A stretch of 64,000 nucleotides of DNA from Prescottella equi (lineage in GTDB: Bacteria > Actinomycetota > Actinomycetes > Mycobacteriales > Mycobacteriaceae): contig NZ_LWTX01000009.1 in NCBI RefSeq assembly GCF_002094305.1, positions 124,001 through 188,000 of the forward strand, written 5' to 3'. Positions 30,077 to 63,862 of the stretch are shown here, one piece after another. Both the position numbers and the translations under genes were made by a program. How positions within the stretch are numbered: position 1 is the first letter of the stretch; each line of letters begins with the position of its first letter. The notes beneath the pieces are model-generated. The model did not search any database. It was given only the letters and a program-made list of their open reading frames with translations, and had not been told where the DNA came from.

Positions 30077-30107
30077 CGCTCACGAATCAACCAGGAGAGA
30101 CGAAACA

Positions 30108-46764: not shown

Positions 46765-46877
46765 CTCGAGAAGCCTCCTGGGTGTCTGAGTCGTGGTGCA
46801 GGGATGCACGGTGACACTCGACGCGTGTCCGGTGTCACAGTGGACGGGACCTCGCGCCGATGGAACGAGAATCTCGT

Positions 46878-47792
46878 TCAGCGGGACCGGTCGGGCCGCG
46901 ACGCGACGTACCACGCGGTGGCGACGACGGTCGCGCAGCCGACGAGCTGCAGGGTCGACGGGCGTTCGCCGAGCAGCGCCATCGCGGCCGCGATCGCGAG
47001 CACCGGTTGCAGGAGCAGCAGCGTGGCGCCTACCTCCGGCGCGAGTCGGGGGAGCGACCGGCCGAGCAGCATCCAGCCGAGGACCTGCGCCGACACGGCG
47101 AGGGCTGCGAGCCAGCCGAACGCGGCCCATCCGGGCGCCAGGTCGACGGTGCCCCACACGGACCCCAGGGCGGAGCCGACCACACCCGCGGCCGCGGTGG
47201 AGACCAGGACCTGGGTGCCGGCAGTGGCAGCCGTGCCGCGCCCGCCGACGACGAAGATGTAGCCCGCGTACGCCACCCCGGACAGGAGGGCCAGAAGCGT
47301 CCCCCACAACAGGTCCGGACTGGTCGCACCGTCGTCGACGACGCCCGCCGTGAGTGCGATGCCGGCGAACAGCACCGGGATCGTCGCGACGAAGCGGGCC
47401 GGAATCCTGGTGCCCAGGAACAGGAACGACAGCAGCGGCACCACCGCCACCTGAATGTTGACGAGCACCGTGGAGATGCCCGCCCCGACGAGCATGATGG
47501 CCTGCGACCACAACGCGAAGTCGACACCGAGCAGCGCCCCGGCGACGGCGAACCGCACCGCGTCCGCGCGGCTCGTCCGACGGCTGCGCCGGTGCTCTCG
47601 CCACGCGAGCACGGCCAGCGGCGGCAGCGCCAGCGCGCAGCGGAAGAACACCGACGTCGCGGGGGAGACGTCGGCGAGGCGGATGAACACCGCGGTCAGG
47701 GAGATGCAGGCCGCTCCCGCCACGGCCAGCGCGCGCGCGTCGGTGACGCGGCCGGCGGCGAGGGGAACGCTGCGAACTTCGACGATCTGCAC
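46878..47792 (-). CDS. EamA/DMT family transporter
   Basis: A 304-residue protein with ten membrane helices in two EamA repeats (first ACISLTAVFIRLADVSPATSVFFRCALALPPL, second GVAYAGYIFVVGG ... LLLLQPVLAIAAAMALLGE). Such proteins export metabolites or amino acids. I start it at GTG 47792, which keeps a 74-base gap with the divergent LysR gene; an upstream start at 47828 is possible. Control by that LysR protein is likely. Confidence 0.88.
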   Translation of the reverse strand: MQIVEVRSVPLAAGRVTDARALAVAGAACISLTAVFIRLADVSPATSVFFRCALALPPLAVLAWREHRRSRRTSRADAVRFAVAGALLGVDFALWSQAIMLVGAGISTVLVNIQVAVVPLLSFLFLGTRIPARFVATIPVLFAGIALTAGVVDDGATSPDLLWGTLLALLSGVAYAGYIFVVGGRGTAATAGTQVLVSTAAAGVVGSALGSVWGTVDLAPGWAAFGWLAALAVSAQVLGWMLLGRSLPRLAPEVGATLLLLQPVLAIAAAMALLGERPSTLQLVGCATVVATAWYVASRPDRSR

Positions 47793-47866
47793 GGGCTCAA
47801 TTGTTGGGTCTACCTGCACAAACAACAACTAAGAAGTATTTCTCGAGATTCGGTAGTGTTGCTTCC

Positions 47867-48769
47867 GTGTTGAACCTCGACCGCGTCCGGGCATTGTGTG
47901 CGGTGGCCCGCTCCGGGTCCGTCGCGGCGGCTGCGCGGGTTCTGCACGTGACGCCGTCGGGCGTGTCGCAGCAGTTGGCGAAACTCGAGCGTGAAGTCGG
48001 GGTCGCACTGCTCGAACCGGCGGGGCGCGGGGTGCGTCTGACGCCCGCGGGAGAACTACTGGCGCGCCGCGGCGGCGAGCTGTTGGCCCGCGCGTCCGGC
48101 GTGGAGGCGGAGATAGCCGCGATGGCCAGCGAGGTGGTGGGCCCGCTGCGGTTCGGTGCCTTCGTGACCGCGTCGCGGCTGGTGCTCCCGTCGGCGGTGG
48201 GGACGCTTCTGTCCCGGTATCCGCTGCACGTGACGGTGACCGAGGCCGAGACCGAGGTGACCCTCGAGTCCGTCGCCCGCGGCCGTATCGATGTGGGTGT
48301 CGTCGACAGTTGGGAATCGGCGCCGGTCGATGTTCCGGCGCACCTGGAGTCGCGACTGATCCACCGCGACACCGCCGATCTCGCGCTGTCCGTCGATCAT
48401 CCGTGTGCGCGGGACGCCGAGGTGCGGTTGTCGAGTCTCGCCGACATGCCGTGGGTGGCCTGGGGGTCCGGCACCGCATTCCACGAGTGGCTGGTGGTCA
48501 CCCTGCGTCGGCAGGGTTTCGAGCCGCGCGTCGATTTCGAGGCGTCGGACGTCTCGACACACCTCGCGTTCGCGGCGGCAGGACTCGCGGCCGCGCTGGT
48601 TCCCCGGCTGGCAATGGACCGCACGCCAGAGGGGGTGGCGCTGGTGGCGACCGAACCGCGCCTGCACCGCGACATCTACGCGGTGTGGCGGGCCGACAAC
48701 GCCGGCCCGGCCGTGCGCGCGGGTATCGACGCGGTGGAGGACGCGTTCGGGCGTAGGAGAACGGCGTAG
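47867..48769 (+). CDS. LysR family transcriptional regulator
   Basis: A 300-residue LTTR: HTH LDRVRALCAVARSGSVAAAARVLHVTPSGVSQQLAKLEREVGVALL, effector domain from GPLRFGAFVTASRLVLPSAV. It is divergent from the EamA exporter, a common LTTR-exporter pair in which the regulator senses the exported compound. Start GTG 47867. It is convergent with the MpaB-type oxygenase gene six bases beyond its stop. Confidence 0.9.
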   Translation: MLNLDRVRALCAVARSGSVAAAARVLHVTPSGVSQQLAKLEREVGVALLEPAGRGVRLTPAGELLARRGGELLARASGVEAEIAAMASEVVGPLRFGAFVTASRLVLPSAVGTLLSRYPLHVTVTEAETEVTLESVARGRIDVGVVDSWESAPVDVPAHLESRLIHRDTADLALSVDHPCARDAEVRLSSLADMPWVAWGSGTAFHEWLVVTLRRQGFEPRVDFEASDVSTHLAFAAAGLAAALVPRLAMDRTPEGVALVATEPRLHRDIYAVWRADNAGPAVRAGIDAVEDAFGRRRTA

Positions 48770-48775
48770 GAGAAC

Positions 48776-49711
48776 TCAGTTCGCCCGTTGCGGGTGATCG
48801 TGCTCGACACCCAGGTCGCGGGGGCAGTAACCCACCGGATAACCGGGATAGGTGCGATTGTCCGGGTCGGTTGCCGCCGACGAAGTCCGACGTTTGGGTA
48901 GCAGGCGCACCACCGCGGACCGCGCACGCAGGCCCGCCTCGGCCACCGCTCGCACCCTGGGCGACCCCTTCGGGAACCCGAAAGCGAGCGACATGCGTTC
49001 GTCGATCAACGCGTACACGGCTGTGGCGACGGGTCTGGCGAGGAAGCCGGGGTACCACGACTGGAACAGCTCGAGCGTGTACGTGCCGATCCGATGATTG
49101 TCGTCGCTGTAGACGAACTTCTCCCGCTCGTAGTCCATCTTGAACCGATGGAATTCCTGGTAGGAGTCGGGGATGTGCTTGATCCCCATGCGAATTCCCA
49201 CCTGACGGTAGAAGTGGAACGAGGCGAGCCGCTCGTGTGGGTGCAGTCTGCGCCAGCCGTAGCGGTCGATCCAGTCGATCGGGTCGTACACGAACGTCGA
49301 CAGCACGTACAACATGTCGTCGTTCGAGATCGTGTAGCGGCCGTGCATGCGGTTGATGTTGCGCAGGGACTCCCGGCCGCGGGGCGAGTCGTAGCCGTGC
49401 TCGACCAGTTCGCTCATCAGGAGGGCGGTGTCGTCGTAGCGCTTCTGCGGTCGCTTCTCGAACTCGCCCGTGCGGGCCAGGAGTTCGGAGATCGACGGCA
49501 CGCAGTAGGTGCGGAACAGGGCGAACTCGAGCGATCGTTGGTAGTCCCACGGGAACTCGTACCCCGAGGTGATCCGCAGGATGTCCTGGTGCCGGGTCAC
49601 CGGATCGAGGCCCTCGACGACCTTCACCCACCCCCGCCGCCCCGGTCGTGGTCGCGGATCGCGGTCCGGGCCGGGGAAGCTTCCCGCGCGGCGTCCGTTC
49701 GTCAGGGTCAT
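48776..49711 (-). CDS. DUF2236/MpaB-type heme oxygenase (first copy)
   Basis: A 311-residue member of the DUF2236 family, which includes latex-clearing protein (rubber oxygenase) and the fungal MpaB that cleaves the farnesyl chain of a mycophenolic acid precursor. The N-terminal tail is Arg/Pro-rich. The core has RYDDTALLMSELVEHGYDSPRGRESLRNINRMHGRYTI, with His in NRMHGRY the likely heme ligand, then NDDMLYVLSTFVYDPIDWIDRYGWR. It starts five bases after the aldehyde dehydrogenase stop, so they form one transcript. ATG 49711 is chosen; the 12-residue upstream extension overlaps the dehydrogenase. Confidence 0.85.
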   Translation of the reverse strand: MTLTNGRRAGSFPGPDRDPRPRPGRRGWVKVVEGLDPVTRHQDILRITSGYEFPWDYQRSLEFALFRTYCVPSISELLARTGEFEKRPQKRYDDTALLMSELVEHGYDSPRGRESLRNINRMHGRYTISNDDMLYVLSTFVYDPIDWIDRYGWRRLHPHERLASFHFYRQVGIRMGIKHIPDSYQEFHRFKMDYEREKFVYSDDNHRIGTYTLELFQSWYPGFLARPVATAVYALIDERMSLAFGFPKGSPRVRAVAEAGLRARSAVVRLLPKRRTSSAATDPDNRTYPGYPVGYCPRDLGVEHDHPQRAN

Positions 49712-49716
49712 CGCCG

Positions 49717-51252
49717 TCACCGCCCGTGCCGAGCCTTGAGCATCCACGCGGAGATCTTCATGTCTCGCGCCGATCGCTCGAGCGTCAGCAGATTCAGTGG
49801 CGCCGAGAACTTCTGGACGGTCACGGCCTTGGGCCGGCTGAACTCGCGCAAGCCGTCGGCGCCGTGGATGCGCCCGAACCCGGACTCACCGATGCCACCG
49901 AACGGCAACGACGGGATTCCGGCGAAACCGAGAACCGAGTTCACCGACACCATGCCGGTGCGCAGACGGTCCGCTATGTCCCTGCCGCGACTGCGGTTCG
50001 ACGTGAAGACGGATGCTCCGAGGCCGTACGAGGTGGCGTTCGCGCGCTCGATGCCCTCCTCGATGTCGCGCACCCGGTTGACCACGACGGTCGGACCGAA
50101 CGTCTCCTCGCACACCGCCGACGACGATTCCGGGACGTCGGTGAGGATCACCGGCTCGACGAAACGCTCGTGCACCGAGTCGATTCCGCCGGTCACTGCG
50201 CGAGCGCCCTTCTCCAGAGCGTCGGCGATGTGGTTGCGGACGACGTCCACCTGGCGCGGCAGCGTCATCGGTCCGTAGGTGTCGGCGTCGGACCCGCCCG
50301 GTCGGACCCGCTCGACCGCGGCCGTGAACTTGTCGAGGAACTGGCGGTACACCGGTTCGGCGACGTAGATGCGTTCGACACCGGCACATGTCTGGCCGGC
50401 GTTGCCGAACGCGCCGAACGCGGCGAACTCGACCGCCTTGTCGAGGTCGGCGTCCTCCGCGACCAGCATCGCGTCCTTGCCGCCGCATTCCGCAACGAGG
50501 GGAGTGAGGGTTTCGGCGCAGACCGCCATGACCTTGCGGGCCGTGGGGCCGGATCCGGTGAACGCGATCTTGTCGACGCCGGCGCGACACAGGTCTGCAC
50601 CGGTTGCGCCGAGGCCCGTGATCACCTGGAGCACGGGTTGGGTGGGGGCGAGCGAGTTCCACTTGGCCTCGAGCCACTTTCCGACACCCGGGGTGAGCTC
50701 ACTGGGCTTGAAGACGATCGCGTTGCCGGCGGCGAGGGCGTACGAGATCGATCCCATCGGGGTGTACACGGGGTAGTTCCACGGTCCGATGACCCCGACC
50801 ACCCCGAGCGGCTTGTAGCCGAGGGTGGCCGATTGGTTGGCGCTCACCAGTCCGGACGAGACCCGGCGCGGTTTGAGTACCTTCTTCGCGTTGCGGGCGG
50901 CCCAGTCCAGATGCTCGACGGCGAGCATCACCTCGAGCAGGGCGTCGTCGTGCGGCTTGCCGGTCTCGGCCGAGATCACCCGTGCCAGGTCGTCGCCGTC
51001 CGAGGCGATCGCCTTCTTGAATTCGAGCAGCCAGTCGCGACGGCCGCGGAAGCCCTGGGCGTCCCACCAGCGCGCCGCGCCGCGCGCCCGCTCGACGGCC
51101 GCTCGGACGTCGGCGGCGGTGGCGACCGGGTATTCGGCAAGCGTTTGCCCCGTCCGCGGATCCAGGCTCGCGAAGGTCGTCGCCGCGTCCTGCGCGGCGG
51201 GTTCGACGGTTGATCCGGGTGCAGCGTCGCTCGAAGACAGTTCTCGGGTCAT
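49717..51252 (-). CDS. Aldehyde dehydrogenase (NAD(P)+-dependent)
   Basis: A 511-residue ALDH that oxidises an aldehyde to the acid. The coenzyme fold has GVIGPWNYPVYTPMGSISYALAAGNAIVFKPSE and KIAFTGSGPTARKV; the general base is Glu in LVAECGGKDAML and the nucleophile is Cys in GNAGQTCAGVERI. The C terminus has the family end PFGGIGESGFGRIHGADGLREFS. ATG 51252 has GAAGGAAG upstream. It is divergent from an acyl-CoA dehydrogenase around a perfect palindrome, and co-transcribed with an MpaB-type oxygenase whose aldehyde product it could take. Confidence 0.93.
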   Translation of the reverse strand: MTRELSSSDAAPGSTVEPAAQDAATTFASLDPRTGQTLAEYPVATAADVRAAVERARGAARWWDAQGFRGRRDWLLEFKKAIASDGDDLARVISAETGKPHDDALLEVMLAVEHLDWAARNAKKVLKPRRVSSGLVSANQSATLGYKPLGVVGVIGPWNYPVYTPMGSISYALAAGNAIVFKPSELTPGVGKWLEAKWNSLAPTQPVLQVITGLGATGADLCRAGVDKIAFTGSGPTARKVMAVCAETLTPLVAECGGKDAMLVAEDADLDKAVEFAAFGAFGNAGQTCAGVERIYVAEPVYRQFLDKFTAAVERVRPGGSDADTYGPMTLPRQVDVVRNHIADALEKGARAVTGGIDSVHERFVEPVILTDVPESSSAVCEETFGPTVVVNRVRDIEEGIERANATSYGLGASVFTSNRSRGRDIADRLRTGMVSVNSVLGFAGIPSLPFGGIGESGFGRIHGADGLREFSRPKAVTVQKFSAPLNLLTLERSARDMKISAWMLKARHGR

Positions 51253-51280
51253 GTCGGGCTTCCTTCGTGCCGGGGATCGC

Positions 51281-51296
51281 ATCACATATATGTGAT
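51281..51296. promoter_or_regulatory. Perfect 16-bp palindrome in the ALDH/ACAD divergent promoter
   Basis: ATCACATATATGTGAT is fully self-complementary and stands in the 175-bp gap between two divergent operons, 28 bases from the aldehyde dehydrogenase start. TGTGAT repeats once more to the right. The GntR regulator at 52579 is the best candidate to bind it. Confidence 0.7.
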
Positions 51297-51427
51297 GTGA
51301 TTTACTGTGTTGACGCTCACACTATTGGTCCCGGCAGACGGGGACAACCCCACGCGCGGTATCCGCGGCCGATCGTGGCGTTCGAGCCCTCGCTTCACTC
51401 GACTCTTCGCAGGCAGGAGCACATCAG

Positions 51428-52570
51428 GTGACGATCGACTTCACCGCCGAGCAGCAGGCCTTCGCGCAGGCCGTGGCGGCGTTCTGCCGCAAGGAGTGCG
51501 GCACTCGCGAGCAGCGTGACGCCCTCACCGGTCGCGGCGAACACAACCACAACCAAGACCTCTACCTGAAGATGGCCGACCTGGGCTGGCTGGGCATCAC
51601 GGTGCCCGAGGAGTACGGCGGTTCTGCCGGCACCGCAGTCGACATGTGCATTCTGCTGGAACAGGCGGCGCGGGGGATGGCGCCGATCGGCGGGGTTGGC
51701 CCCACGCTCATCACCGGCGCAGCGTACGCCAAGTTCGGCACCGACGCCCAGAAGGAGACCGTGCTCGGTGGCATCGTCCGGGGTGCATCCGAGTCGATCT
51801 CGATGTCCGAACCCGAGGCGGGCTCCGATGTGGGGAATCTCAGCTGCAAGGCCGAGAAGGTGTCCGGCGGCTGGCTGATCAACGGACAGAAGACGTGGTG
51901 TTCCAACGCGCATTTCGCCGAGAACATCCTGTTGGTGGCCCGAACCGATCGCACCGGATCGAAGCACGAGGGGTTGACGATGTTCCATCTGCCGGCCGAC
52001 ACGCCGGGACTGAAGATCAGCGGCATCGCAACGATGGGTGGCAAGGAGGTCAACGACCTCTATCTCACTGACGTGCTGCTCCCCGAGGACGCGGTGGTCG
52101 GCGAGGTGGGACAGGGATGGACGCAACTGATGACCGGCCTCAACATCGAACGCCTGATCCTGGGCGCCATGATGCTCGGCACGGCCCAGCGGGCATTCGA
52201 CGACGCGCTCGAATTCGTCACGCAGCGAAAGCAGTTCGGACGGCCGGTCGGAACCTTCCAGGCGCTGCGGCACCGTATCGCCGACCTCGCGACCGAGATC
52301 GAGTGCACCCGGCTACTGGTGTACAACACCGCGCGACTGGTCGACGACAACCCGACGAAGATGTTCCCGCGCGAGGCGTCCATGGTGAAGCTCAAGGCCA
52401 CGGAGACCGCGAAGAAGGTGGCCCTCGAGGGAATGCAGATGATGGGCGGGTACGGCTACGCCACCGAATTCGACATGGAGGGCCACGTCCGCAAGACCCT
52501 GGTCGCGTCGATCTACGGTGGTACCAACGAGATCCAGCGCGACATCATCGGCAAGACGTACGGGCTGTAG
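51428..52570 (+). CDS. Acyl-CoA dehydrogenase (IVD/LCAD-type active site)
   Basis: A 380-residue FAD acyl-CoA dehydrogenase. Signature 1 is SISMSEPEAGSDVGNLS and the C-terminal signature is QMMGGYGYATEFDMEGHVRKTLVASIYGGTNEIQRDIIGK. At the position of the usual catalytic Glu (YEGT) it has Gly (YGGT); Glu241 in NIERLILG instead matches the helix-G base of isovaleryl- and long-chain acyl-CoA dehydrogenases. That suggests branched or long substrates. GTG 51428 heads a transcript with GntR and the second MpaB-type gene. Confidence 0.92.
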   Translation: MTIDFTAEQQAFAQAVAAFCRKECGTREQRDALTGRGEHNHNQDLYLKMADLGWLGITVPEEYGGSAGTAVDMCILLEQAARGMAPIGGVGPTLITGAAYAKFGTDAQKETVLGGIVRGASESISMSEPEAGSDVGNLSCKAEKVSGGWLINGQKTWCSNAHFAENILLVARTDRTGSKHEGLTMFHLPADTPGLKISGIATMGGKEVNDLYLTDVLLPEDAVVGEVGQGWTQLMTGLNIERLILGAMMLGTAQRAFDDALEFVTQRKQFGRPVGTFQALRHRIADLATEIECTRLLVYNTARLVDDNPTKMFPREASMVKLKATETAKKVALEGMQMMGGYGYATEFDMEGHVRKTLVASIYGGTNEIQRDIIGKTYGL

Positions 52571-52578
52571 GGGGTGCC

Positions 52579-53259
52579 ATGGCTGCGCCGGTTCGGCCCA
52601 CGCGGCCCCTCCGCCGGACCCAACTCTCCGACGACGTGGCGGCGCACCTGCGTGGTGCCGTCATGTCGGGCCGGCTGCGGACCGGCGCATTCGTCCGCCT
52701 CGACGAGACCGCGGCCGAACTCGGGGTGAGCGTCACCCCGGTGCGGGAGGCGTTGCTGACGCTCCGGGGAGAGGGGATGGTCGAATCGGTCCCCAACCGT
52801 GGATACGTCGTCTCGCCGCTGGATCGAGACGACGTGTACGACATCTTCTGGCTGCAGGGCCGGATCACGGTGGAACTGGCGGTGCGTGCCTCCGGTTCGG
52901 CGGACGCCGACGACCTGGCGCGGCTCACCGATCTCAACGCGGTTCTCCACGACGCGGTCGGCGCGACCGATGCGGAGCGGATTGCCGAGGCCGAGTACGA
53001 GTTCCATCGCGAACTGTGCCGTATCGCGGGCGGCCCCAAGCTTGCCTGGTTCCTGGCCGGCGCGGCCCGGTACACGCCGCATCAGCTGTACGCGGCCGAC
53101 CCGGAGTGGGGTGCCCTCGCCGTGCGCGCCCACGCGGATCTGATCGCGGCGATCGCGGCCCGCGATGGTGCCGCGGTCGTGCGGCACACTCGGATCCAGT
53201 TCGACGACGCGGCCGACCGGCTCGTGGCGCACCTCGAGCGGAGCGGGATCTGGCAATGA
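52579..53259 (+). CDS. GntR family regulator (FCD subfamily)
   Basis: A 226-residue regulator: winged HTH TQLSDDVAAHLRGAVMSGRLRTGAFVRLDETAAELGVSVTPVREALLTL and an FCD effector domain with HRELCRIAGGPKL and a metal-site His in VRAHADLIAAIAARD. It starts eight bases after the acyl-CoA dehydrogenase stop and is followed after 37 bases by the second MpaB-type gene, so it sits inside the operon it probably controls. FCD domains commonly bind carboxylic acids or acyl-CoAs. Confidence 0.92.
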   Translation: MAAPVRPTRPLRRTQLSDDVAAHLRGAVMSGRLRTGAFVRLDETAAELGVSVTPVREALLTLRGEGMVESVPNRGYVVSPLDRDDVYDIFWLQGRITVELAVRASGSADADDLARLTDLNAVLHDAVGATDAERIAEAEYEFHRELCRIAGGPKLAWFLAGAARYTPHQLYAADPEWGALAVRAHADLIAAIAARDGAAVVRHTRIQFDDAADRLVAHLERSGIWQ

Positions 53260-53296
53260 CCGACCACCGTCCATCACCCGACGAAAGCGACGACCG

Positions 53297-54139
53297 ATGA
53301 CGATCGATGCCACCACGCGGCCGCGCCGCGCGCTCCCGGACTCCCTGGACCCGCCCGCCGGATCACTGGACCTCGCCGATTTCGTGGGCGAGTCCATGCT
53401 GTTGATCGGCGCCGGAGCCACCGTGTTGTTGCAGTTGGCGCTGCCGGGCGTCGGCCGTGGAGTCGCCGAGCACAGCTCGACCCTCGAGCGTCCCCTGGAC
53501 CGGTTGCGGACGACCATGACGTACGTGTACGCCGTCACCCTCGGCACTCCCGAGGAGAAGCAGGCGGTGGTGCGGCTGGTCAACAAGGCGCACGTCCCGG
53601 TGCGGTCGGAGCGGTACAACGCATTCGATCCCGAACTGCAGCTGTGGGTAGCGGCAACGTTGTACCGCAACGGTTCCGACATGTACCGCCGATTCTTCGG
53701 TGAACTCGCTGACGCCGACGCGGATCGGCTGTACCGACAGTCCGCGGTGTACGGGACGGCGCTGCAGGTCAGGGACGACATGTGGCCGGCCACCCGTGCC
53801 GAGTTCGACGCCTACTGGGACCGGATGATCGAGAGCGCGGAGGTCGACGACCAGGTGCGCGCGTACGTGCGCGGACTGCTCTCCGGCGGTAAGGCCCCGC
53901 TACCTGTCCGCTTGACGATGCCGCTGCAGCGCTTCTTCACGATCGGCCTGCTGCCGCCCCGGGTGCGGGACCAGTTCGCCCTGCCGTGGAGCCCGCGCGA
54001 TCAACGGCGATTCGATCGGCTCATGACCGTCCTGCCCGTCGTCTACCGGCGGGTGCCGCGACCGATACGGCAGGTGACAGCGACGTTCTACCTGTGGGAT
54101 ATGCGCCGGCGCCTTGCGGCACACCGGCATCTGATCTGA
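53297..54139 (+). CDS. DUF2236/MpaB-type heme oxygenase (second copy)
   Basis: A 280-residue DUF2236 protein of the more common bacterial type. It opens SLDLADFVGESMLLIGAGATVLLQLALPGVGRGVAEHS and has the family core PLDRLRTTMTYVYAVTLGTPEEKQAVVRLVNKAHVPVRS, with His in NKAHVPV the likely proximal heme ligand, then YNAFDPELQLWVAATLYRNG. It differs clearly from the copy at 48776, so the two are distant paralogues. It ends the plus-strand transcript of the locus and is convergent with the DUF4334 gene. ATG 53297. Confidence 0.88.
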   Translation: MTIDATTRPRRALPDSLDPPAGSLDLADFVGESMLLIGAGATVLLQLALPGVGRGVAEHSSTLERPLDRLRTTMTYVYAVTLGTPEEKQAVVRLVNKAHVPVRSERYNAFDPELQLWVAATLYRNGSDMYRRFFGELADADADRLYRQSAVYGTALQVRDDMWPATRAEFDAYWDRMIESAEVDDQVRAYVRGLLSGGKAPLPVRLTMPLQRFFTIGLLPPRVRDQFALPWSPRDQRRFDRLMTVLPVVYRRVPRPIRQVTATFYLWDMRRRLAAHRHLI

Positions 54140-54169: not shown

Positions 54170-54646
54170 TCAGAGTGCGACGTCTCGCTCCAGCCCGAAC
54201 CAGAAGTGTTCGCCGCCGTCGAACACCAACGTGCCCTTGCCGTTCATGACGCCGATGACGGTGTCGTCGTCGACCTTCTTGAAGTGGTCGGACACCGGCA
54301 TGCCGTCGTAGACCATCGTCGCGGTCACCTCCCCGCGGAACACGACCTCCCACAGGCTGGCCTCGCCGTGCCCGGTTCCGATGTCGGAGAACAGCTGTCC
54401 GTCCTCGCTGCGGCACAGCAGAGGCTGCACGTCGGACTCGCTGGCGAATGCCTTGCCGTACCAATGCGCTCGACGGAGGAGCCCACTCGTGCGATGTCCG
54501 GTGTCGAAGTCGAAACCCCGCCAGCGGTACCCGATCAGATCCACGGGCCGACACGGGGCCAAGCGGTCCCAGATCGAATCGAGTTCCCGCGGATCGATCC
54601 GGTCGGTGCGCGCCCGCAGCGCGGCGACCTCGTCTCGTACGTTCAT
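54170..54646 (-). CDS. GXWXG/DUF4334 domain protein
   Basis: A 158-residue protein with an N-terminal GXWXG-type motif (LIGYRWRGFDFDTGH) and a C-terminal DUF4334 domain (ATMVYDGMPVSDHFKKVDDDTVIGVMNGKG, HFWFGLERD). The function of the family is not established. ATG 54646 overlaps the alcohol dehydrogenase stop by four bases, so it is coupled to that enzyme and likely acts with it, perhaps by binding a hydrophobic alcohol or aldehyde. Confidence 0.85.
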   Translation of the reverse strand: MNVRDEVAALRARTDRIDPRELDSIWDRLAPCRPVDLIGYRWRGFDFDTGHRTSGLLRRAHWYGKAFASESDVQPLLCRSEDGQLFSDIGTGHGEASLWEVVFRGEVTATMVYDGMPVSDHFKKVDDDTVIGVMNGKGTLVFDGGEHFWFGLERDVAL

Positions 54647-55773
54647 GCTCGTCCTCCGGTGTCGTTGTCCGCGAACGTGAGTACCGCCTTGACCACCTCT
54701 CCGGACCGTGTCGCGGCGATCGCGTCGTCGATCCGGTCGATCGGGAACGTTCGTACCAGCTTCTCGACCGGAAAGCGACCCTGACGCCACAGGTCGACGA
54801 GCATCGGCAGGAACGTCAGTGGATCGGCATCGCCCTCGATGACGCCGGTGAGGGTGCGCCCGTTCAGGAGATGGCTCTGGTCGATCGTGATGGGATTACG
54901 TCCGGGCAGTAACCCCAGTGTCGCGCAGACTCCGGGCGGGCGTAGCGAGGACAGTGCATGACGGACAACCTGTTCGGTTCCCACGGATTCCACTGCGAAA
55001 TCCACACCGCCACCGGACTCGCGGCGAACCGCCCGCCCGACGTCGTCGACGTCGACGGGCGACAGCGCCGCCGTCGCCCCCAGTTCCAGCGCCAGGGTTC
55101 GGCGGGCCGAGATCGGGTCCACGGCGATGACGTTCCCGCACCCGGCTACCCGCGCGGCCATGATCGCCGCCATCCCCACGGCGCCGAGCCCGAACACCGC
55201 GATCGCCGATCCGGGATCCGGGCGCAGGACGTTGAAGACGGTCCCGGCCCCGGTCTGGAGTCCGCAGCCGAGCGGACCGGCGAGCGCGACCGGCACGTCT
55301 GGGGGAAGGCGTACCGCGTTGCGGGCAGAGGCCACCGCGTGTGACGCCATCGAGGATTGACCGAACCAGTTGCCGTGTAGCGCAGTACCGTCGGTGCCGG
55401 TCAGCGTGGTGGTCCCGTCGAGCCGGGTTCCACCGTGGTTCAGGGCGGTTGCGTTCTCGCAGTAGGCCGCCCGCCCCCGGCCGCAGTTGCGGCAGGATCG
55501 GCACGAGTCGAAGCCGAGGACCACGGGGTCTCCCGGCGTGAGTCCGGCGACACCGACGCCGACGGCCTCGACGATCCCGGCACCCTCGTGGCCCAGAACC
55601 GCCGGAAGAGGGAACGGGACACCACCGTCTGCGGCCGTCAGGTCGGTGTGGCAGATGCCCACTCCCTGGATGCGCACCAGAATCTCGTCGTCGCGTATCT
55701 CGGGTACCCGGATGGGTTCGAGGCGGAGTGGTCCGCCGTGGGCGCGTAGCACCACTGCGGCCGCTCCGCTCAT
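54643..55773 (-). CDS. Zinc-dependent alcohol dehydrogenase (class III/aryl-alcohol type)
   Basis: A 376-residue MDR enzyme that oxidises a primary alcohol to an aldehyde with NAD+. The catalytic zinc site has GICHTDLTAADG and GHEGAGIVEAVG; the structural zinc Cys cluster is CRSCRNCGRGRAAYC. The Rossmann motif is VFGLGAVGMAAIMAARVAGC. It resembles mycobacterial AdhD/AdhE and aryl-alcohol dehydrogenases. Its start overlaps the tandem TetR stop by four bases, giving a three-gene operon regulator - dehydrogenase - DUF4334. Confidence 0.93.
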   Translation of the reverse strand: MSGAAAVVLRAHGGPLRLEPIRVPEIRDDEILVRIQGVGICHTDLTAADGGVPFPLPAVLGHEGAGIVEAVGVGVAGLTPGDPVVLGFDSCRSCRNCGRGRAAYCENATALNHGGTRLDGTTTLTGTDGTALHGNWFGQSSMASHAVASARNAVRLPPDVPVALAGPLGCGLQTGAGTVFNVLRPDPGSAIAVFGLGAVGMAAIMAARVAGCGNVIAVDPISARRTLALELGATAALSPVDVDDVGRAVRRESGGGVDFAVESVGTEQVVRHALSSLRPPGVCATLGLLPGRNPITIDQSHLLNGRTLTGVIEGDADPLTFLPMLVDLWRQGRFPVEKLVRTFPIDRIDDAIAATRSGEVVKAVLTFADNDTGGRA

Positions 55774-57032
55774 GCGTCGCTCGTCTCACCGAACAACGTC
55801 GCGAGCATCAGCTGCCGGACCCGGGCTTCATTGGCTGCGGTTGACTCGAAGTGCATCACCCGCCCGACGTCGAGTACCAGGCTGAGCGCCGCGTGGACGA
55901 GGAAGCGACATTCCGCGACGGACAGATCGGGCCGAGCCTCGCCGAGTAGCAGAGCCCATTCTTCGACATTGAGGCGCTGCGTGTTTCGCAGCGAGGTGCG
56001 CTCGGGCGCCGGCAGGCTCCCGATCTCCGCGAAGTACACGCTCATGAGCTCGGACTGGGCGAACGACAGACGCACGTAGACCTCGACCAGCGACTCGAGA
56101 GCCTGTCGGGGGGTGTCGGAATTGCCCAGTGCGGTGCTCACCGCGACGGCGAGTCGCTCCGCCGCGCGATGAAAGGTCGCTGCCAGCAGATCCGACTTGC
56201 TCGAGAAGTAGCGATACACCCCGGAGGCGTTGATACCCGCGGCCTGGCCGATGTCCTCGATGCTCACCTCGTGGTAGCCGCGCGCCTCGAAAAGCAGGAT
56301 GGCCTCGTTGAGCACGACTTCGCGCTTGTTGGCCAACGGGATTCCGGCGTTCCTCGGGTGGACTCCGGTGGATGGCGTCTCCGCGGGGAGTTCGGCGCGA
56401 GCGATCGATCGGCACGCGCCGAGCAGGAGTCGCTCGAGTCGCCGCGCCGGCAAGGCGGCCCGATGAACGGTGATGCTTCCGATCGCTCCGAGGATCGCGA
56501 CGCAGATCTGTACCGAGTCCCGGTGGGTGATGTCGGGCCTGATGTCCTCGAGCGTCGCGCCGATGCGACGGTTGACCGCTTCGACGGCTCCCCGGACCGC
56601 CGCCCTGTCCGGCGGTTCGAGATAGCGGCTCTCCCACCTATAGAGCCCGGCCGTGCGGCGATGGGCGACGGTGGTCCTGACCGCCGCGAGGATCTGGTGA
56701 TCGAGCCGATCGACGGGGTCGCCGACCACGTCGGCGTCGTCCTGTGCGACGGCATTCTCCAGGGCTTCGGCGAGATCGGTCGCGGCCTGCGAGAACAGTG
56801 CGTACTTGTTCGGGAAATGGCGGTACAGGGCAGGACCCGAGATACCGACGGCCGCGGCGATCTCGTCGATACTGACGCCGTGATAGCCGCGCTCGGTGAA
56901 GGCCTCGGCGGCCACCGCGGCGATCTGGGCCTTCCGGTTCTTCGGCCGGCGTCGAATCTCGCTGGTGGGCAGATGCTGCACGTCGATGCGAACGCGCCCA
57001 GTGCGGGATCCGGTCTTCGTCCGCTCCGTCAC
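55770..57032 (-). CDS. TetR-type regulator with two DNA-binding domains in tandem
   Basis: A 420-residue protein holding two TetR modules. The first HTH is KNRKAQIAAVAAEAFTERGYHGVSIDEIAAAVGISGPALYRHFPNK (about 32-77) with its own helical domain. The second is ANKREVVLNEAILLFEARGYHEVSIEDIGQAAGINASGVYRYFSSK (about 230-275) with another helical domain to the end. One chain thus has the content of a TetR dimer. GTG 57032 is chosen with GGAGG upstream; the frame continues open to 57635 without coding character. It heads an operon and is divergent from the nitronate monooxygenase gene, so it may control both. Confidence 0.9.
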   Translation of the reverse strand: MTERTKTGSRTGRVRIDVQHLPTSEIRRRPKNRKAQIAAVAAEAFTERGYHGVSIDEIAAAVGISGPALYRHFPNKYALFSQAATDLAEALENAVAQDDADVVGDPVDRLDHQILAAVRTTVAHRRTAGLYRWESRYLEPPDRAAVRGAVEAVNRRIGATLEDIRPDITHRDSVQICVAILGAIGSITVHRAALPARRLERLLLGACRSIARAELPAETPSTGVHPRNAGIPLANKREVVLNEAILLFEARGYHEVSIEDIGQAAGINASGVYRYFSSKSDLLAATFHRAAERLAVAVSTALGNSDTPRQALESLVEVYVRLSFAQSELMSVYFAEIGSLPAPERTSLRNTQRLNVEEWALLLGEARPDLSVAECRFLVHAALSLVLDVGRVMHFESTAANEARVRQLMLATLFGETSDA

Positions 57033-59071
<2,039 letters not shown>

Positions 59072-59337: not shown

Positions 59338-60936
59338 ATGGTCACTTCCGCTGCTGTGCCTGCCGCCTTGCTCGAGGCGCAGCGATCGCGTCGAACCAAC
59401 TGGAACAACCAGGTGGCCCGGCACGCTCGCATGATCCCGGATCGTCCGGCGCTGCGTTTCCAGGGCGCGTCGATCACGTGGTCGACGCTGCACGAGCGGG
59501 TCGAACGGCTCGCCGACGCGCTTTCCCGCCGGGGCGTCGAGTTCGGCGACCGGGTGCTGATCCTGATGTTGAACCGTCCCGAGTACCTCGAGGCCGTGCT
59601 GGCGGCCAACGCTCTCGGTGCGATCGCGGTCCCTGTGAACTTCCGCATGACCGTTCCCGAGGTGGCGTTCCTGGTGCGCGACAGCGGCGCCCGTGCTGTC
59701 GTCGCCGATACGACGCTGGCCCCGCTCGCCGCGGCCGTCCGGGCCGAGACCGGCAGTCTGGAGCTGTCCGTCACGGTCGGAGGGGAGACGACCGGCGACA
59801 CCCTCGGGTACGAGGAGCTGATCTCGGAGGTTGGCACTCCCCGCGTGCCCCTGGATGTTCCGGACGACACGCCGGCGCTCGTCATGTACACCTCCGGCAC
59901 CACCGGTCGACCCAAGGGTGCGGTGCTCACCCACAGCAACATGGAGGCGCAGGCGCTCACCTGTATCCGTGCGTTCCAGCTCAACCGCTCCGACGACATC
60001 GGGTTCTGCGCGTCGCCGATGTTCCACATCGCGGCGCTGGGGTCGATGGCCCCGAGCCTCATGCTGGGTCTCACCACCGTCATCTACCCAGTCGGCGCGT
60101 TCGATCCCGGCGCACTCCTCGACGTTCTCGAGGAGGAGCAGGTCACCACGCTGTTCCTCGTCCCGGTGCAGTGGCAGGCGGTATGCGCGGTGCAGCAGGC
60201 GCAACCGCGAAAGCTGAAGTTGCGCGGCATCTCCTGGGGTGCGGCGCCCGCCTCGGACACCGTGCTTCGGGCGATGGCCGAGACGTTCCCCGACGCGTCC
60301 AACGTCGCGGTGTTCGGGCAGACCGAGATGTCGCCGATCACCTGCGTGCTCGACGGTGACGACGCGCTGCGCAAGCTGGGTTCGGTCGGTCGGGTGATTC
60401 CGACCGTCCAGGCCCGGGTCGTGGACGACGACATGAACGACGTCGCCCCGGGCGCGGTGGGTGAGATCGTCTATCGCGGCCCGACGATGATGCTCGAATA
60501 CTGGCAGAACCCCGCCGCGACCGCGGATGCGTTCCACGGCGGATGGTTCCACTCCGGAGATCTGGTTCGAGTGGACGACGAGGGGTTCGTCTACGTGGTC
60601 GACCGCAAGAAGGACATGATCATCTCCGGTGGTGAGAACATCTACTGCGCCGAAGTGGAGAACGCGCTCTTCGCGCACCCGAAGATTCTCGAGGCGGCCG
60701 TGATCGGGCGCCCCGACCCCAAGTGGGGCGAGATCCCGGTGGCCGTCGTGGCACTTCGGCCGGATGCGGGTGGCGAACTCACTCTCGAGGAGTTGCAGCC
60801 GTTCCTGGACGAGCAACTGGCCCGGTACAAGCATCCCAAGGCTGTTGTCTGTGTGGAAGCGTTGCCGCGCAACGCGAGTGGAAAGGTCGTCAAGGGCGAT
60901 CTGCGGGGCGGGGCGTCGCCCGTCGTCCAGGGCTGA
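59338..60936 (+). CDS. fadD5: Fatty-acyl-CoA synthetase (FadD5-like)
   Basis: A 532-residue AMP-forming ligase. The A3 motif is MYTSGTTGRPKGAVLTH, A5 FGQTEMSPITCVL, A8 VDRKKDMIISGGENIYCAEVE, and the catalytic Lys is in NASGKVVKGDL. It directly precedes yrbEA-yrbEB-mceA, just as Rv0166 fadD5 precedes the mce1 genes in M. tuberculosis, so it probably activates imported or recycled fatty acids. ATG 59338 has GAGGAA upstream. The 266-base gap before it is A/T-rich near the gene and likely holds the operon promoter. Confidence 0.9.
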   Translation: MVTSAAVPAALLEAQRSRRTNWNNQVARHARMIPDRPALRFQGASITWSTLHERVERLADALSRRGVEFGDRVLILMLNRPEYLEAVLAANALGAIAVPVNFRMTVPEVAFLVRDSGARAVVADTTLAPLAAAVRAETGSLELSVTVGGETTGDTLGYEELISEVGTPRVPLDVPDDTPALVMYTSGTTGRPKGAVLTHSNMEAQALTCIRAFQLNRSDDIGFCASPMFHIAALGSMAPSLMLGLTTVIYPVGAFDPGALLDVLEEEQVTTLFLVPVQWQAVCAVQQAQPRKLKLRGISWGAAPASDTVLRAMAETFPDASNVAVFGQTEMSPITCVLDGDDALRKLGSVGRVIPTVQARVVDDDMNDVAPGAVGEIVYRGPTMMLEYWQNPAATADAFHGGWFHSGDLVRVDDEGFVYVVDRKKDMIISGGENIYCAEVENALFAHPKILEAAVIGRPDPKWGEIPVAVVALRPDAGGELTLEELQPFLDEQLARYKHPKAVVCVEALPRNASGKVVKGDLRGGASPVVQG

Positions 60937-61012
60937 GTGCGGGGTCCGGCGCCGCGCGGCAGGGGCGCGTCGTCAGGTCGAGGGTCGAAACGGAACTGGG
61001 GAGGGCCGGCGC

Positions 61013-61822
61013 ATGACCTACGAACTACCCCCCGCGAAGGGGCCGGTGCAGGACGTCGCGCTCCAGGGCGGGTACCTCATCGGCTTTTCCGTGCAGGCGA
61101 TGGTGTCGTTGGCCAGAGCTCTCCTTCGCGGTCGGCTGTCGCTCGAGGAGACCGTGAAGCAGACCCTGTTCATCGGCAGGGTCAGCACCGGTCCTTCTCT
61201 GCTGCTGATGGTGCCGATCGGTGTGTTCGTCGCGGTGTCGGTCGGTGAGCTCGCCGGGCGGATCGGTGCCGGCGGCTATTCCGGTGCGGTGGTGGCGTTC
61301 ATCATCGTCGGGCAGGCCTCCGCGCTGGTCTGCGCGCTGATGATGGCGGGGGTGGCCGGCTCGGCGATCTGCACGGATCTGGGCTCACGGAAGATCCGTG
61401 AGGAGATCGACGCCATGGAAGTCATGGGTATCGACGTGGTCGAACGGCTCGTCGCCCCGCGACTGCTGGCTGCCGTGGTGGTCTCGGTGGCGCTGTGTGC
61501 GATGGTGACCTTCGGTGGCGTGATGGCGTGCTACCTGTACCACATCTACGTCCAGCACCTGCCCGCCGGAACGTTCCTGGCGACATTCGGTCAATACGGC
61601 CGGACAGCGGATTTCGTGATGGCGCTCGTGAAAGCCGCGATCTTCGCTCTCACCTCTACGCTCGTCGCGACGTTCAAGGGGTTGCACGCGAAGGGTGGTC
61701 CGCGCGGTGTCGCCGACGCCGTCAACGAGGCCGTCGTGATCGCCTTCGCGCTCGTGTTCGTCGTGAACACCGCGTTGTCCGCGCTGTACACCGTGATCGT
61801 CCCGGCCGTGGGAGCGTATTGA
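61013..61822 (+). CDS. yrbEA: YrbE/MlaE-family ABC permease A of the mce locus
   Basis: A 269-residue MlaE-type permease with about five membrane helices: PSLLLMVPIGVFVAVSVGELA, SGAVVAFIIVGQASALVCALMMAG and C-terminal VIAFALVFVVNTALSALYTVIV. The coupling-helix signature EIDAMEVMGID is present. It pairs with YrbEB and an MceG ATPase encoded elsewhere to import lipids delivered by Mce proteins. Its stop and the next start share one base. Confidence 0.95.
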   Translation: MTYELPPAKGPVQDVALQGGYLIGFSVQAMVSLARALLRGRLSLEETVKQTLFIGRVSTGPSLLLMVPIGVFVAVSVGELAGRIGAGGYSGAVVAFIIVGQASALVCALMMAGVAGSAICTDLGSRKIREEIDAMEVMGIDVVERLVAPRLLAAVVVSVALCAMVTFGGVMACYLYHIYVQHLPAGTFLATFGQYGRTADFVMALVKAAIFALTSTLVATFKGLHAKGGPRGVADAVNEAVVIAFALVFVVNTALSALYTVIVPAVGAY

Positions 61823-62679
61823 TGGTTGCCTTCGACACCCGGGTGCGCCTGCGCCGGGCGATGCGGCCGGCGTCCGCCGTGGTCGACGGACTCGCCGACG
61901 TCGGCCGGCACGTCACGTTCTTCTTCCGCACCCTGGTTTCGCTGCCCTACGCGGCGACGCGGTATCGCAAGCACGTGTTGGCGCAGATCAGCGAGGTCAG
62001 CTTCGGAACCAACTCTGTGCTCTCCGGCGGCGGAACCATCGGGATCGTGTTCGCGATGTCACTCGCCGCCGCGATGATGCTCGGAGTCGAGACGCAGCGC
62101 GGACTCGAACTGGTAGGCATGACAACCCTTTCCGGGATGTTGTCGGCCATCGCCAACACGCGGGAACTCGCGCCGGTGGTGGTCGCGATCGCGCTCGCCG
62201 CGAAGGTGGGCACCGGGTTCACCGCGCAACTCGGGGCGATGAGGATCTCCGACGAGATCGACGCACTCGACTCGATGGGGGTGCGGTCGATCCCGTTCCT
62301 GGCCGGCACACGGGTGCTGGCGGCAATGGTGTGTGTGCTCCCGATCTTCATGATCGGACTGCTCGCCAGCTATCTGTCGACCCGTCTGGTGATCGTGGTG
62401 TGGGGTGGCGCCTCGGCGGGCACCTACGACTACTTCTTCCACCTTGCGCTGTCGCCGGTGGACCTCGTCTACGCCGCGATCAAGGCCATCGTGTTCGCGG
62501 GAGTTGTTGCACTGGTGCACTGTTCGTACGGATACTTCGCCTCGGGTGGACCGGCCGGTGTGGGTCAGGCGGCGGGACGGGCGCTGCGTACCGCGATTCT
62601 CGCGATCGGGGTGTTGGACGTGCTCATGACGTTCGCGCTGTGGGGGCTGGTCCCGACGATCCCCGGGATGGGGGTCTGA
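61822..62679 (+). CDS. yrbEB: YrbE/MlaE-family ABC permease B of the mce locus
   Basis: A 285-residue permease with an N-terminal amphipathic region (ADVGRHVTFFFRTLVSLPYAATRYRKHVL) and MlaE helices GTIGIVFAMSLAAAMMLGVE, TRELAPVVVAIALAAKVG, and the signature RISDEIDALDSMGVRSI. It forms the membrane channel with YrbEA. ATG 61822 overlaps the upstream stop; the mceA start follows its stop by one base. Confidence 0.95.
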   Translation: MVAFDTRVRLRRAMRPASAVVDGLADVGRHVTFFFRTLVSLPYAATRYRKHVLAQISEVSFGTNSVLSGGGTIGIVFAMSLAAAMMLGVETQRGLELVGMTTLSGMLSAIANTRELAPVVVAIALAAKVGTGFTAQLGAMRISDEIDALDSMGVRSIPFLAGTRVLAAMVCVLPIFMIGLLASYLSTRLVIVVWGGASAGTYDYFFHLALSPVDLVYAAIKAIVFAGVVALVHCSYGYFASGGPAGVGQAAGRALRTAILAIGVLDVLMTFALWGLVPTIPGMGV

Positions 62680-62680
62680 G

Positions 62681-63862
62681 ATGGACGTCTACTCGCGGCG
62701 TCGAACCGCCTTCGTTCTGCGGGGCGCCGTGGCCGTGCTGGTCGCGGTGGTGGCGGGAACGGCGATGGTGCTGCGGGGAACCGGCCAACTACATCGGGAC
62801 CCGGAGGTGCTCGTCGCGATACCGGCCTCCGCGGGGCTCGTCAACGGCGAGGCGCCGGTCCGTTACAGCGGCGTCGATGTCGGTCGCATCGCCGGGATCG
62901 ACTCGGGGACCGAATCGTCGGTTGTCCGACTTCGGATCGACTCGGATTCGATCGACCTGATCCCCGCCGCCGTACTGGCGCGAGTCGTTCCCCGTACCTT
63001 CTTCGGGGACATTTACATCCAGCTCGTCGACGATCCCGTGGGACAGCCGCAAGGGAGCCTGGCCGACGGCGACGAGGTGCGGGCCGACACCGGTCCGGAC
63101 GCGGTGGCCCTGTACGCGGTCTACACCCGTCTGGTCGACATCCTCGACCGGATGCAGCCCCAGAACATCCAGGTCGCGCTGTCCGCGATCTCCCATGCGC
63201 TGGACGGTCGCGGAGCCATGGTCGGCCGGATCGTCGATCGACTCGACGGGGCGTCGCAGACGTTGGCCCCCGCGGTGCGGACGTTCCTCGACTCGACTCC
63301 CGACTTCCGATCCGTGCTGCAGACGTTGCACACCGCCAGCCCCGACGTGCTCGCGACGCTGTCGTCGTCGACGAACGTGTCGCAGAGCATGGTCGACAAT
63401 CGGCAGGCGCTCGACGAAACCATCGAATCCGCAGCGCGTTTCGCGCCGGTGTTCACGGGATTCGTCGGTGAGCAGCGCGACCGCGTGGTGACAGTGGTCG
63501 ATTCGGCCGGCACGATTCTGGCCACTACCGCGGCGAACCCCGCCGGCCTGGTCGACACGCTCGAGGGCGCGCGCACCTTCGGTGCCGCGGGTGCCCGTGT
63601 GTTCGCCACCGGTCACTTCGACATCACCGCCGTCCCGACGTTTGCCGACCCCATGCCGTACACCGCCGCCGACTGCCCCGCCTACGGCGGGCAACCTGGC
63701 GACTGCGGTCCCCCGTCCGTCGCCGGGGGAGCGGACGAGCAGGAGGCCTTCCGGCTGCTGGAGGAACGCTTGCTCGGGGACACTGCCGTGGCAGCACGGA
63801 ATCCGGCCTCCACCTTCATGCTGGGTCCGCTCGTCCGGGGAACCGAGGTGCGGATCCGATGA
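62681..63862 (+). CDS. mceA: MceA-type MlaD/MCE family protein
   Basis: A 393-residue secreted or membrane-anchored MCE protein. A single N-terminal helix (VLRGAVAVLVAVVAGTAMVLRG) precedes the MlaD domain (VLVAIPASAGLVNGEAPVRYSGVDVGRIAGID, FFGDIYIQLVD), followed by the long helical stalk typical of Mce subunits. Six Mce proteins normally form a tunnel across the periplasm for lipid import. It is the first mce gene after the permeases; its stop overlaps the next start. Confidence 0.93.
   Translation: MDVYSRRRTAFVLRGAVAVLVAVVAGTAMVLRGTGQLHRDPEVLVAIPASAGLVNGEAPVRYSGVDVGRIAGIDSGTESSVVRLRIDSDSIDLIPAAVLARVVPRTFFGDIYIQLVDDPVGQPQGSLADGDEVRADTGPDAVALYAVYTRLVDILDRMQPQNIQVALSAISHALDGRGAMVGRIVDRLDGASQTLAPAVRTFLDSTPDFRSVLQTLHTASPDVLATLSSSTNVSQSMVDNRQALDETIESAARFAPVFTGFVGEQRDRVVTVVDSAGTILATTAANPAGLVDTLEGARTFGAAGARVFATGHFDITAVPTFADPMPYTAADCPAYGGQPGDCGPPSVAGGADEQEAFRLLEERLLGDTAVAARNPASTFMLGPLVRGTEVRIR

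Follow-up and report, generated by a model that had tools for sequence, protein, structure and literature searches.

What reaction joins two proteins of the DUF2236 type to an aldehyde dehydrogenase (ALDH), an acyl-CoA dehydrogenase (ACAD) and a GntR-type regulator is the question raised by a stretch of 64,000 nucleotides from Prescottella equi (contig NZ_LWTX01000009.1, positions 124,001 to 188,000; hereafter the window). Proteins of this type abound in actinobacteria, and a function is known for few of them. An initial annotation had described the five genes as two divergent arms and had read them as a candidate pathway for the cleavage of isoprenoid chains. All five were confirmed in the 64-kb window at their coordinates and on their strands (open reading frames, Pfam matches above cut-off); the two DUF2236 proteins are called A and B here. 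With moderate confidence, we regard the locus as part of a lipid-degradation regulon that is under GntR control and connected with an mce1-type importer, in which a hydrophobic unsaturated lipid would be imported, cleaved at a C=C bond, oxidized from aldehyde to acid and passed to β-oxidation.

A single operator lies between the two arms

The minus arm comprises A and ALDH, nearly touching, and the plus arm ACAD, then GntR, then B. The start codons of ALDH and ACAD lie 175 bp apart, and this region, proposed in the initial annotation as a shared promoter, holds one perfect 16-bp palindrome, ATCACATATATGTGAT, 28 bp upstream of the start codon of ALDH. Its core pattern, TCAMATATATKTGA, matched once in the window (0.01 expected, at most two mismatches) and once in the whole genome (at most one mismatch), where the reversed-pattern control gave no match. 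No sigma-70-type promoters were found in the shared region.

We compared 80 A loci, the highest-ranking of 540 A-like stretches from named genomes, with up to 10 kb on each side; the presence of GntR, ALDH, ACAD, FadD and mce genes was scored inside the fetched stretches by tblastn with identity cut-offs. The operator occurred in 54 of the 80 loci (1.6 Mb), as one perfect copy each and always in front of ALDH. It was present in 52 of the 56 loci with both GntR and ALDH, in 2 of the 9 with ALDH and no detected GntR, and in none of the 15 without ALDH. Within the genus, operator, GntR and B were all present in 11 of 14 genomes; in the other three (G004, G008, G011) the operator and B were absent genome-wide, and GntR was absent from the 20-kb stretch. 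On the simplest reading of these patterns, the palindrome is probably the GntR binding site.

The operator marks both DUF2236 genes across genomes

The perfect operator was found in 126 of 301 genomes of the family, with no match for the reversed control. In an order-wide sample it occurred in 11 of 397 genomes, ten belonging to the same family and one (G570) lying outside it. We read the surroundings of 35 operator sites in 34 chosen stretches. Most (26/35) adjoin an ACAD, ALDH or GntR gene and six lie just before a DUF2236 gene; the remaining three are found between GntR and FadD5 (G040), between FadD5 and YrbEA in an mce operon (G155) and upstream of a pair of other ACAD genes (G111), one site each.

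Two operators were present in 7 of the 301 family genomes, and both sites were read in all seven. In five of these (G150, G184, G230, G234 and G305) the second operator stands upstream of a DUF2236 gene related to B or to C, a third DUF2236 protein of the window genome, and is unlinked to the first, either at a distance of hundreds of kb or on a separate contig. The other two second sites lie in an mce operon (FadD5–YrbEA) and before an ACAD pair, respectively. Since the second operator precedes an unlinked gene of the B/C type, the two putative oxygenases appear to share a regulon. An unlinked second oxygenase that keeps the operator is the strongest evidence that the pair forms a functional unit rather than a chance association, and the view that the five genes act as one co-regulated unit is supported. 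The shared promoter of the initial annotation is borne out in the sense that the 175 bp between the start codons hold the palindrome; the operator itself and the second operators at unlinked oxygenases had been missed.

The gene set is conserved and linked to FadD5 and mce genes

Lack of conservation outside this genome had been named in the initial annotation as evidence that would speak against its reading. Our search of other genomes found the gene set conserved; of 101 genomes searched, 27 encode A at no less than 60% identity. Among the 80 A loci, ALDH was present in 65, GntR in 60, ACAD in 40 and all three in 36; ALDH adjoined A on the same strand in 56, and a second DUF2236 protein (at least 40% identical to B or C) was found in 32. 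Synteny extends across genera to genes beyond the five: an Mce3R-like regulator (at least 30% identity) in 44 loci, the acyl-CoA ligase FadD5 in 43, an enoyl-CoA hydratase (ECH) in 32 and the permease YrbEA in 20. By eye, FadB-like genes were identified in 27 of the loci and FadA-like genes in 21. Given the conservation across genera together with the operator, a chance gene neighbourhood was ruled out. In loci of the Actinoplanes type (L171, L177-L179), subsets of the A, ALDH, ACAD, GntR, Mce3R-like, FadA and FadB genes and of a different FadD gene (about 30% identical) occur, and no mce gene was detected in the stretch. Genes similar to a thiolase and a FadB-type multifunctional enzyme encoded at 28862-32249 (+) of the window also recur across the 80 loci.

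As in mce1-type operons, FadD5, YrbEA/B and six Mce genes run in one direction here; FadD5, YrbE, MceA, MceB and MceF were recognised by family models and MceC-E by reading frames. The mce1 operon of Mycobacterium tuberculosis has a FadR-like repressor (PMC1810536). There the GntR gene is next to fadD5, whereas here it is grouped with ACAD and B at a distance of 6 kb from FadD5, which is preceded by the Mce3R-like gene, a nitronate-monooxygenase (NMO)-like gene and ECH; the order GntR-operator-FadD5 was seen only in G040 among the loci read. For Rhodococcus ruber Chol-4, a figure legend gives an mce system of FMN reductase, hydratase, fadD5, yrbE1A/B and mce1A-F (PMC6498646).

The double-TetR regulator of the window aligns nearly end to end with both TetR halves of Mce3R (PDB 9b7y; phmmer 1.1e-47, residues 1-386 on 10-396), and its gene lies beside the mce operon. 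Orthologues of mce3R have been stated to be exclusive to some pathogenic mycobacteria (PMC11667970). The homologue described here, from Rhodococcus relatives and so outside mycobacteria, accompanies an mce operon of the FadD5 type. Judged by sequence, the window-type double-TetR genes are Mce3R homologues at mce loci outside pathogenic mycobacteria. No operator common to the promoters of the Mce3R-like genes was identified; a scan of 35 promoter regions gave short fragments, some of them in coding ends and some GTTAAC-like. A paper on piperine was dropped: FadD5 appears in its reference list only, and it does not mention DUF2236 (PMC12753220). Besides the five genes, which the initial annotation had, the neighbourhood thus includes FadD5, a regulator resembling Mce3R, an mce importer and another DUF2236 gene (C), none of which it had noted. 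These additions point to imported lipid in general.

A and B resemble double-bond-cleaving haem oxygenases

Both proteins match MPAB_Lcp_cat (PF09995; curated cut-off 23 bits), A with 49.8 and B with 243.9 bits; the 5.2-Mb genome has six matches to this family. A and B both keep the haem-site signature R-x3-T...H, which is found in all A sequences compared (R, T and H each 32/32) and nearly all B sequences compared (R 24/24, T 21/24 with Ser in three, H 24/24). In LcpK30, R164, T168 and H198 are required for activity (PMC6311187, PMC5522427). Both proteins keep the fold of latex-clearing protein (Lcp) and trans-anethole oxygenase (TAO); that of A is closest to TAO, with Lcp next. Signature and fold together suggest that A and B are haem oxygenases. 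A is 92% identical to its counterpart in Rhodococcus hoagii AcN21-7. Apparent internal stop codons of A in five relatives were set aside as natural ends, since the match extended to or beyond them.

The best match of A in both sequence and fold is TAO of Stenotrophomonas maltophilia (PDB 8s1j), with which the QKRxDDT and N...H stretches align, although the two proteins are only 20% identical. We know of no mce, FadD5, ACAD or GntR context for TAO. Lcp (5o1m/5o1l) has its fold in common with both A and B. At the place of its distal Lys167, A has Asp (32/32 sequences) and B of the window has Thr; this lysine is conserved in just 59% of Lcps (PMC5522427). Unlike Lcp, which acts outside the cell, A and B have no secretion leader (by eye) and stand in one regulon together with ALDH, ACAD and an importer. 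The Pfam family matched by A and B takes its name from MpaB/MpaB', enzymes that make mycophenolic acid. MpaB cuts a farnesyl-type side chain and, unlike A and B, is fungal, bound to the endoplasmic reticulum and biosynthetic. Its product goes into CoA ligation and β-oxidation (PMC12591190).

C is 42% identical to B and is encoded in the same genome after the Mce operon; a homologue also adjoins MceF in L152. Another DUF2236 type, 24-28% identical to B, is found near the A locus at L124:3438-4262 and in similar places of Rhodococcoides-type loci. A THAP4-like haem-binding barrel protein directly follows A at L151:10881-11375, and a luciferase-like monooxygenase lies directly upstream of A in Kutzneria (L163:8930-9982) and Paractinoplanes (L171:8979-9983).

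Family models and alignment of ALDH, ACAD and GntR

ALDH scored below the NCBIfam cut-off in every one of the 25 families listed, of 41 matched. Assignment as a succinic semialdehyde dehydrogenase, the best of these, was rejected, the score being 399.6 bits against a cut-off of 521. Among solved structures ALDH comes closest to succinate-semialdehyde and betaine-type dehydrogenases, which we did not use to assign a substrate. In ACAD, the N-terminal, middle and C-terminal Pfam domains are all above cut-off. In an alignment with CarC, Gly replaces the residue that is the catalytic Glu of MCAD-type enzymes, and the IVD/LCAD position is occupied by Glu; we take these positions to distinguish the MCAD from the IVD/LCAD type, so that the assignment to the latter in the initial annotation stands. 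The GntR protein has both its GntR and FCD domains above cut-off.

Proposed mechanism and points against it

In the mechanism that we propose, the YrbE/Mce system would import a hydrophobic lipid, and A and B, as putative haem oxygenases of the MpaB/Lcp/TAO superfamily, would cleave C=C bonds of this lipid, or of its partly degraded form, to carbonyls. The co-transcribed ALDH would convert the aldehyde to the acid, FadD5 would form the CoA ester, and ACAD with the linked ECH would begin β-oxidation. Without inducer, GntR bound to the palindrome between ALDH and ACAD would shut both arms, and the Mce3R-like protein may control the importer arm. Double-bond cleavage by A and B is proposed by analogy with the reported activities of their relatives Lcp, TAO (the Pseudomonas putida enzyme) and MpaB. 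A more specific version is offered tentatively: a GntR regulon of the Mce1R kind, judged by domains and position, may couple mce1-type import to C=C cleavage by two haem oxygenases of the MpaB/Lcp type. These might work one after the other or at different positions of the chain, as the second keeps the shared operator when unlinked.

Several observations weigh against this mechanism. For the operator, the order-wide reversed control matched one genome (G064), as many as the operator matched outside the family, so that lone distant operator matches mean little. A whole-genome search found no operator at the mce operon of the window genome itself. Four of the 56 loci with GntR and ALDH have no operator, and two loci count against the link between GntR and operator: L119 has the operator and no GntR above the 45% identity cut-off, and L175 is a 4.7-kb contig whose end lies close to ACAD. 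A PDB search with GntR gave weak matches only (best 3.3e-11), none of them named Mce1R. For the gene set, eight genomes have the operator at ACAD-GntR and neither A nor ALDH in the 15-kb stretch read, suggesting that the ACAD step may run without A. B is dispensable, as the 3 of 14 same-genus genomes without it keep A and ALDH; one of these three also has no ACAD in the stretch read. YrbEA was found in just 20 of the 80 loci, in part because many flanks end before mce. For the chemistry, no activity, haem or inducer was reported for A, B or close relatives in the literature found. The P. putida JYR-1 enzyme that shares the name TAO with the S. maltophilia protein 8s1j has been described as a flavoprotein making p-anisaldehyde (PMC3774712).

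Candidate substrates and alternative chemistry

If the regulon does serve the cleavage of an imported lipid, FadD5 and the mce1-type importer point to acyl chains, and we hold it possible, short of probable, that imported unsaturated long-chain or mycolic acids are shortened or recycled by cutting at the double bond. FadD5 scores above its curated cut-off and stands with an mce operon; the operators between GntR and FadD5 (G040) and between FadD5 and YrbEA (G155) recall the FadR-like repressor of M. tuberculosis mce1 (PMC1810536), and the FadB- and FadA-like genes of the A loci are consistent with this substrate. Ordinary β-oxidation with isomerases handles unsaturated acids, which would make a cleaving oxygenase unusual, and the related Actinoplanes-type clusters are without a detected mce gene.

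The substrate favoured by the initial annotation, a linear isoprenoid such as squalene, farnesol or phytol chains, menaquinone tails or rubber fragments, is allowed by the enzyme family and suited by an IVD/LCAD-like ACAD, which would fit branched chains. MpaB cuts a farnesyl-type side chain. The MpaB product passes into β-oxidation (PMC12591190), and Lcp cuts polyisoprene (PMC6311187). A paralogue with 44% identity to A is flanked at L096:8536-13571 by the demethylmenaquinone methyltransferase MenG on one side and a MenJ-like reductase on the other, followed by a polyprenyl synthase; a menaquinone-chain role based on this order was dropped, since only one of the 24 paralogue loci read shows the linkage. 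No terpenoid-specific gene was recognised among the recurring neighbour clusters listed, most of which were not searched against families, and published work connects MCE systems with fatty acids and cholesterol (PMC9882608). With nothing in the locus that singles out an isoprenoid, and with A closest to TAO and not to Lcp, we find this substrate doubtful; it is possible, and is not favoured over unsaturated fatty or mycolic chains or sterol side chains. The haem signature, fold, co-regulated unit, ACAD type and conservation bear out the original interpretation in part; its isoprenoid substrate is not among the points supported.

Rather unlikely, in our view, is a different chemistry altogether, in which the DUF2236 proteins hydroxylate, or handle peroxide or lipid peroxide, within a lipid/aldehyde stress-response unit. 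Few members of the family have a known function, no NCBIfam family among the 25 listed, of 41 matched, assigns a substrate to ALDH, and the THAP4-like haem-binding protein beside A in L151 would suit such a role. The linkage with a CoA ligase, ECH, ACAD and an importer looks catabolic, however, and the family members met with reported activity (Lcp, TAO and MpaB) cleave double bonds.

The case for side chains of plant or fungal sterols, or of triterpenoids, cut by the oxygenases at their double bonds comes mainly from one genus (g4; G150, G184, G230, G273), in which an operator-bearing homologue of B lies between a lipid-transfer-protein gene and an acyl-CoA ligase gene, with ACAD genes nearby (L216:2077-11014, L213, L222, L232). 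The former, tested in G150, matches PRK07855 with 703 bits (cut-off 469) and the ligase belongs to the PRK07798 subfamily (594 bits, cut-off 543); we take them to be Ltp2 and a FadD19-like enzyme, respectively. In addition, the double-TetR regulator of the window resembles Mce3R; in M. tuberculosis, cholesterol induces the regulon of that protein (PMC11667970). Against this, the context is limited to that single genus, no sterol gene was recognised among the recurring neighbour clusters, and steroid uptake has been ascribed to mce4 (PMC6498646), whereas the ligase here is FadD5. We consider sterol side chains an unlikely substrate.

That A is a functional TAO acting on phenylpropenes, with ALDH oxidizing the aromatic aldehyde, is very improbable: A is only 20% identical to 8s1j, the linkage with FadD5, mce, Mce3R-like and ACAD genes is ill-suited to a small aromatic compound, and no aromatic-ring gene was recognised among the recurring neighbour clusters.

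Features of the locus

A probably starts at an ATG at 49711, ALDH at the ATG at 51252 and B at the ATG at 53297; an AAGGAA run resembling a ribosome site precedes the ALDH ATG (Table 1). To the left of A, at 45220-48769, the window encodes a FadD4-like ligase, an EamA transporter and a LysR regulator, which among the loci read adjoin A only in same-genus genomes. At 36645-39418 (-) a CMAS-type methyltransferase lies beside an FAD-binding oxidoreductase, a pair that we take to resemble the tmsB/tmsA pair for 10-methyl fatty acids.

Table 1. Features of the locus, in window coordinates except for C
Feature	Position	Strand	Basis
A, DUF2236/MPAB_Lcp_cat protein, TAO-like fold, probable haem oxygenase by sequence	48776..49711	-	Pfam
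Aldehyde dehydrogenase (ALDH), first gene of the minus arm, followed by A	49717..51252	-	Aldedh 423 bits, 1.5e-126
Operator ATCACATATATGTGAT, probable GntR binding site, in the shared promoter	51281..51296	.	Pattern searches
Acyl-CoA dehydrogenase (ACAD), putative catalytic Glu at the IVD/LCAD-type place	51428..52570	+	Pfam, alignment
GntR-FCD regulator, probable local regulator at the operator	52579..53259	+	Pfam, operator co-occurrence
B, second DUF2236/MPAB_Lcp_cat protein	53297..54139	+	Pfam
GXWXG/DUF4334 protein, accessory	54170..54646	-	Pfam; 19/80 loci
Zinc alcohol dehydrogenase, accessory	54643..55773	-	Pfam; 13/80 loci
Mce3R-like double-TetR regulator, true start somewhat upstream	55770..56951	-	phmmer; 44/80 loci
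Nitronate-monooxygenase/FabK-like flavoprotein	57084..58295	+	Pfam NMO 4.2e-56; FabK model below cut-off
Enoyl-CoA hydratase (ECH)	58292..59071	+	ECH_1 1.9e-53; 32/80 loci
FadD5, fatty-acid--CoA ligase of mce1-type operons	59338..60936	+	NCBIfam 832 bits, cut-off 733; 43/80 loci
YrbEA, MlaE-type permease, start uncertain	60938..61822	+	MlaE Pfam; 20/80 loci
YrbEB, MlaE-type permease	61822..62679	+	MlaE Pfam
MceA	62681..63862	+	MlaD and Mce4_CUP1 Pfam
C, third DUF2236 gene, past the window end, after MceB-F	L100:18786-19688 = G000:C9:193945-194847		Sequence comparison

Implications

We found no description of this gene set in the titles, abstract openings and passages searched, a search that left out most subscription journals. 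One conserved operator marking both oxygenases, ALDH and ACAD defines a regulon and offers a way to its inducer and thus to the substrate. It also connects an mce1-type importer concretely with a chemical reaction. If the proposed mechanism is true, it would add a pathway for the breakdown of unsaturated lipids, with enzymes possibly useful for the cleavage of alkenes to aldehydes. On the more specific version offered above, this would be a new route for the degradation or recycling of unsaturated lipid and would explain the purpose of FadD5/mce1 systems in rhodococci and their relatives.

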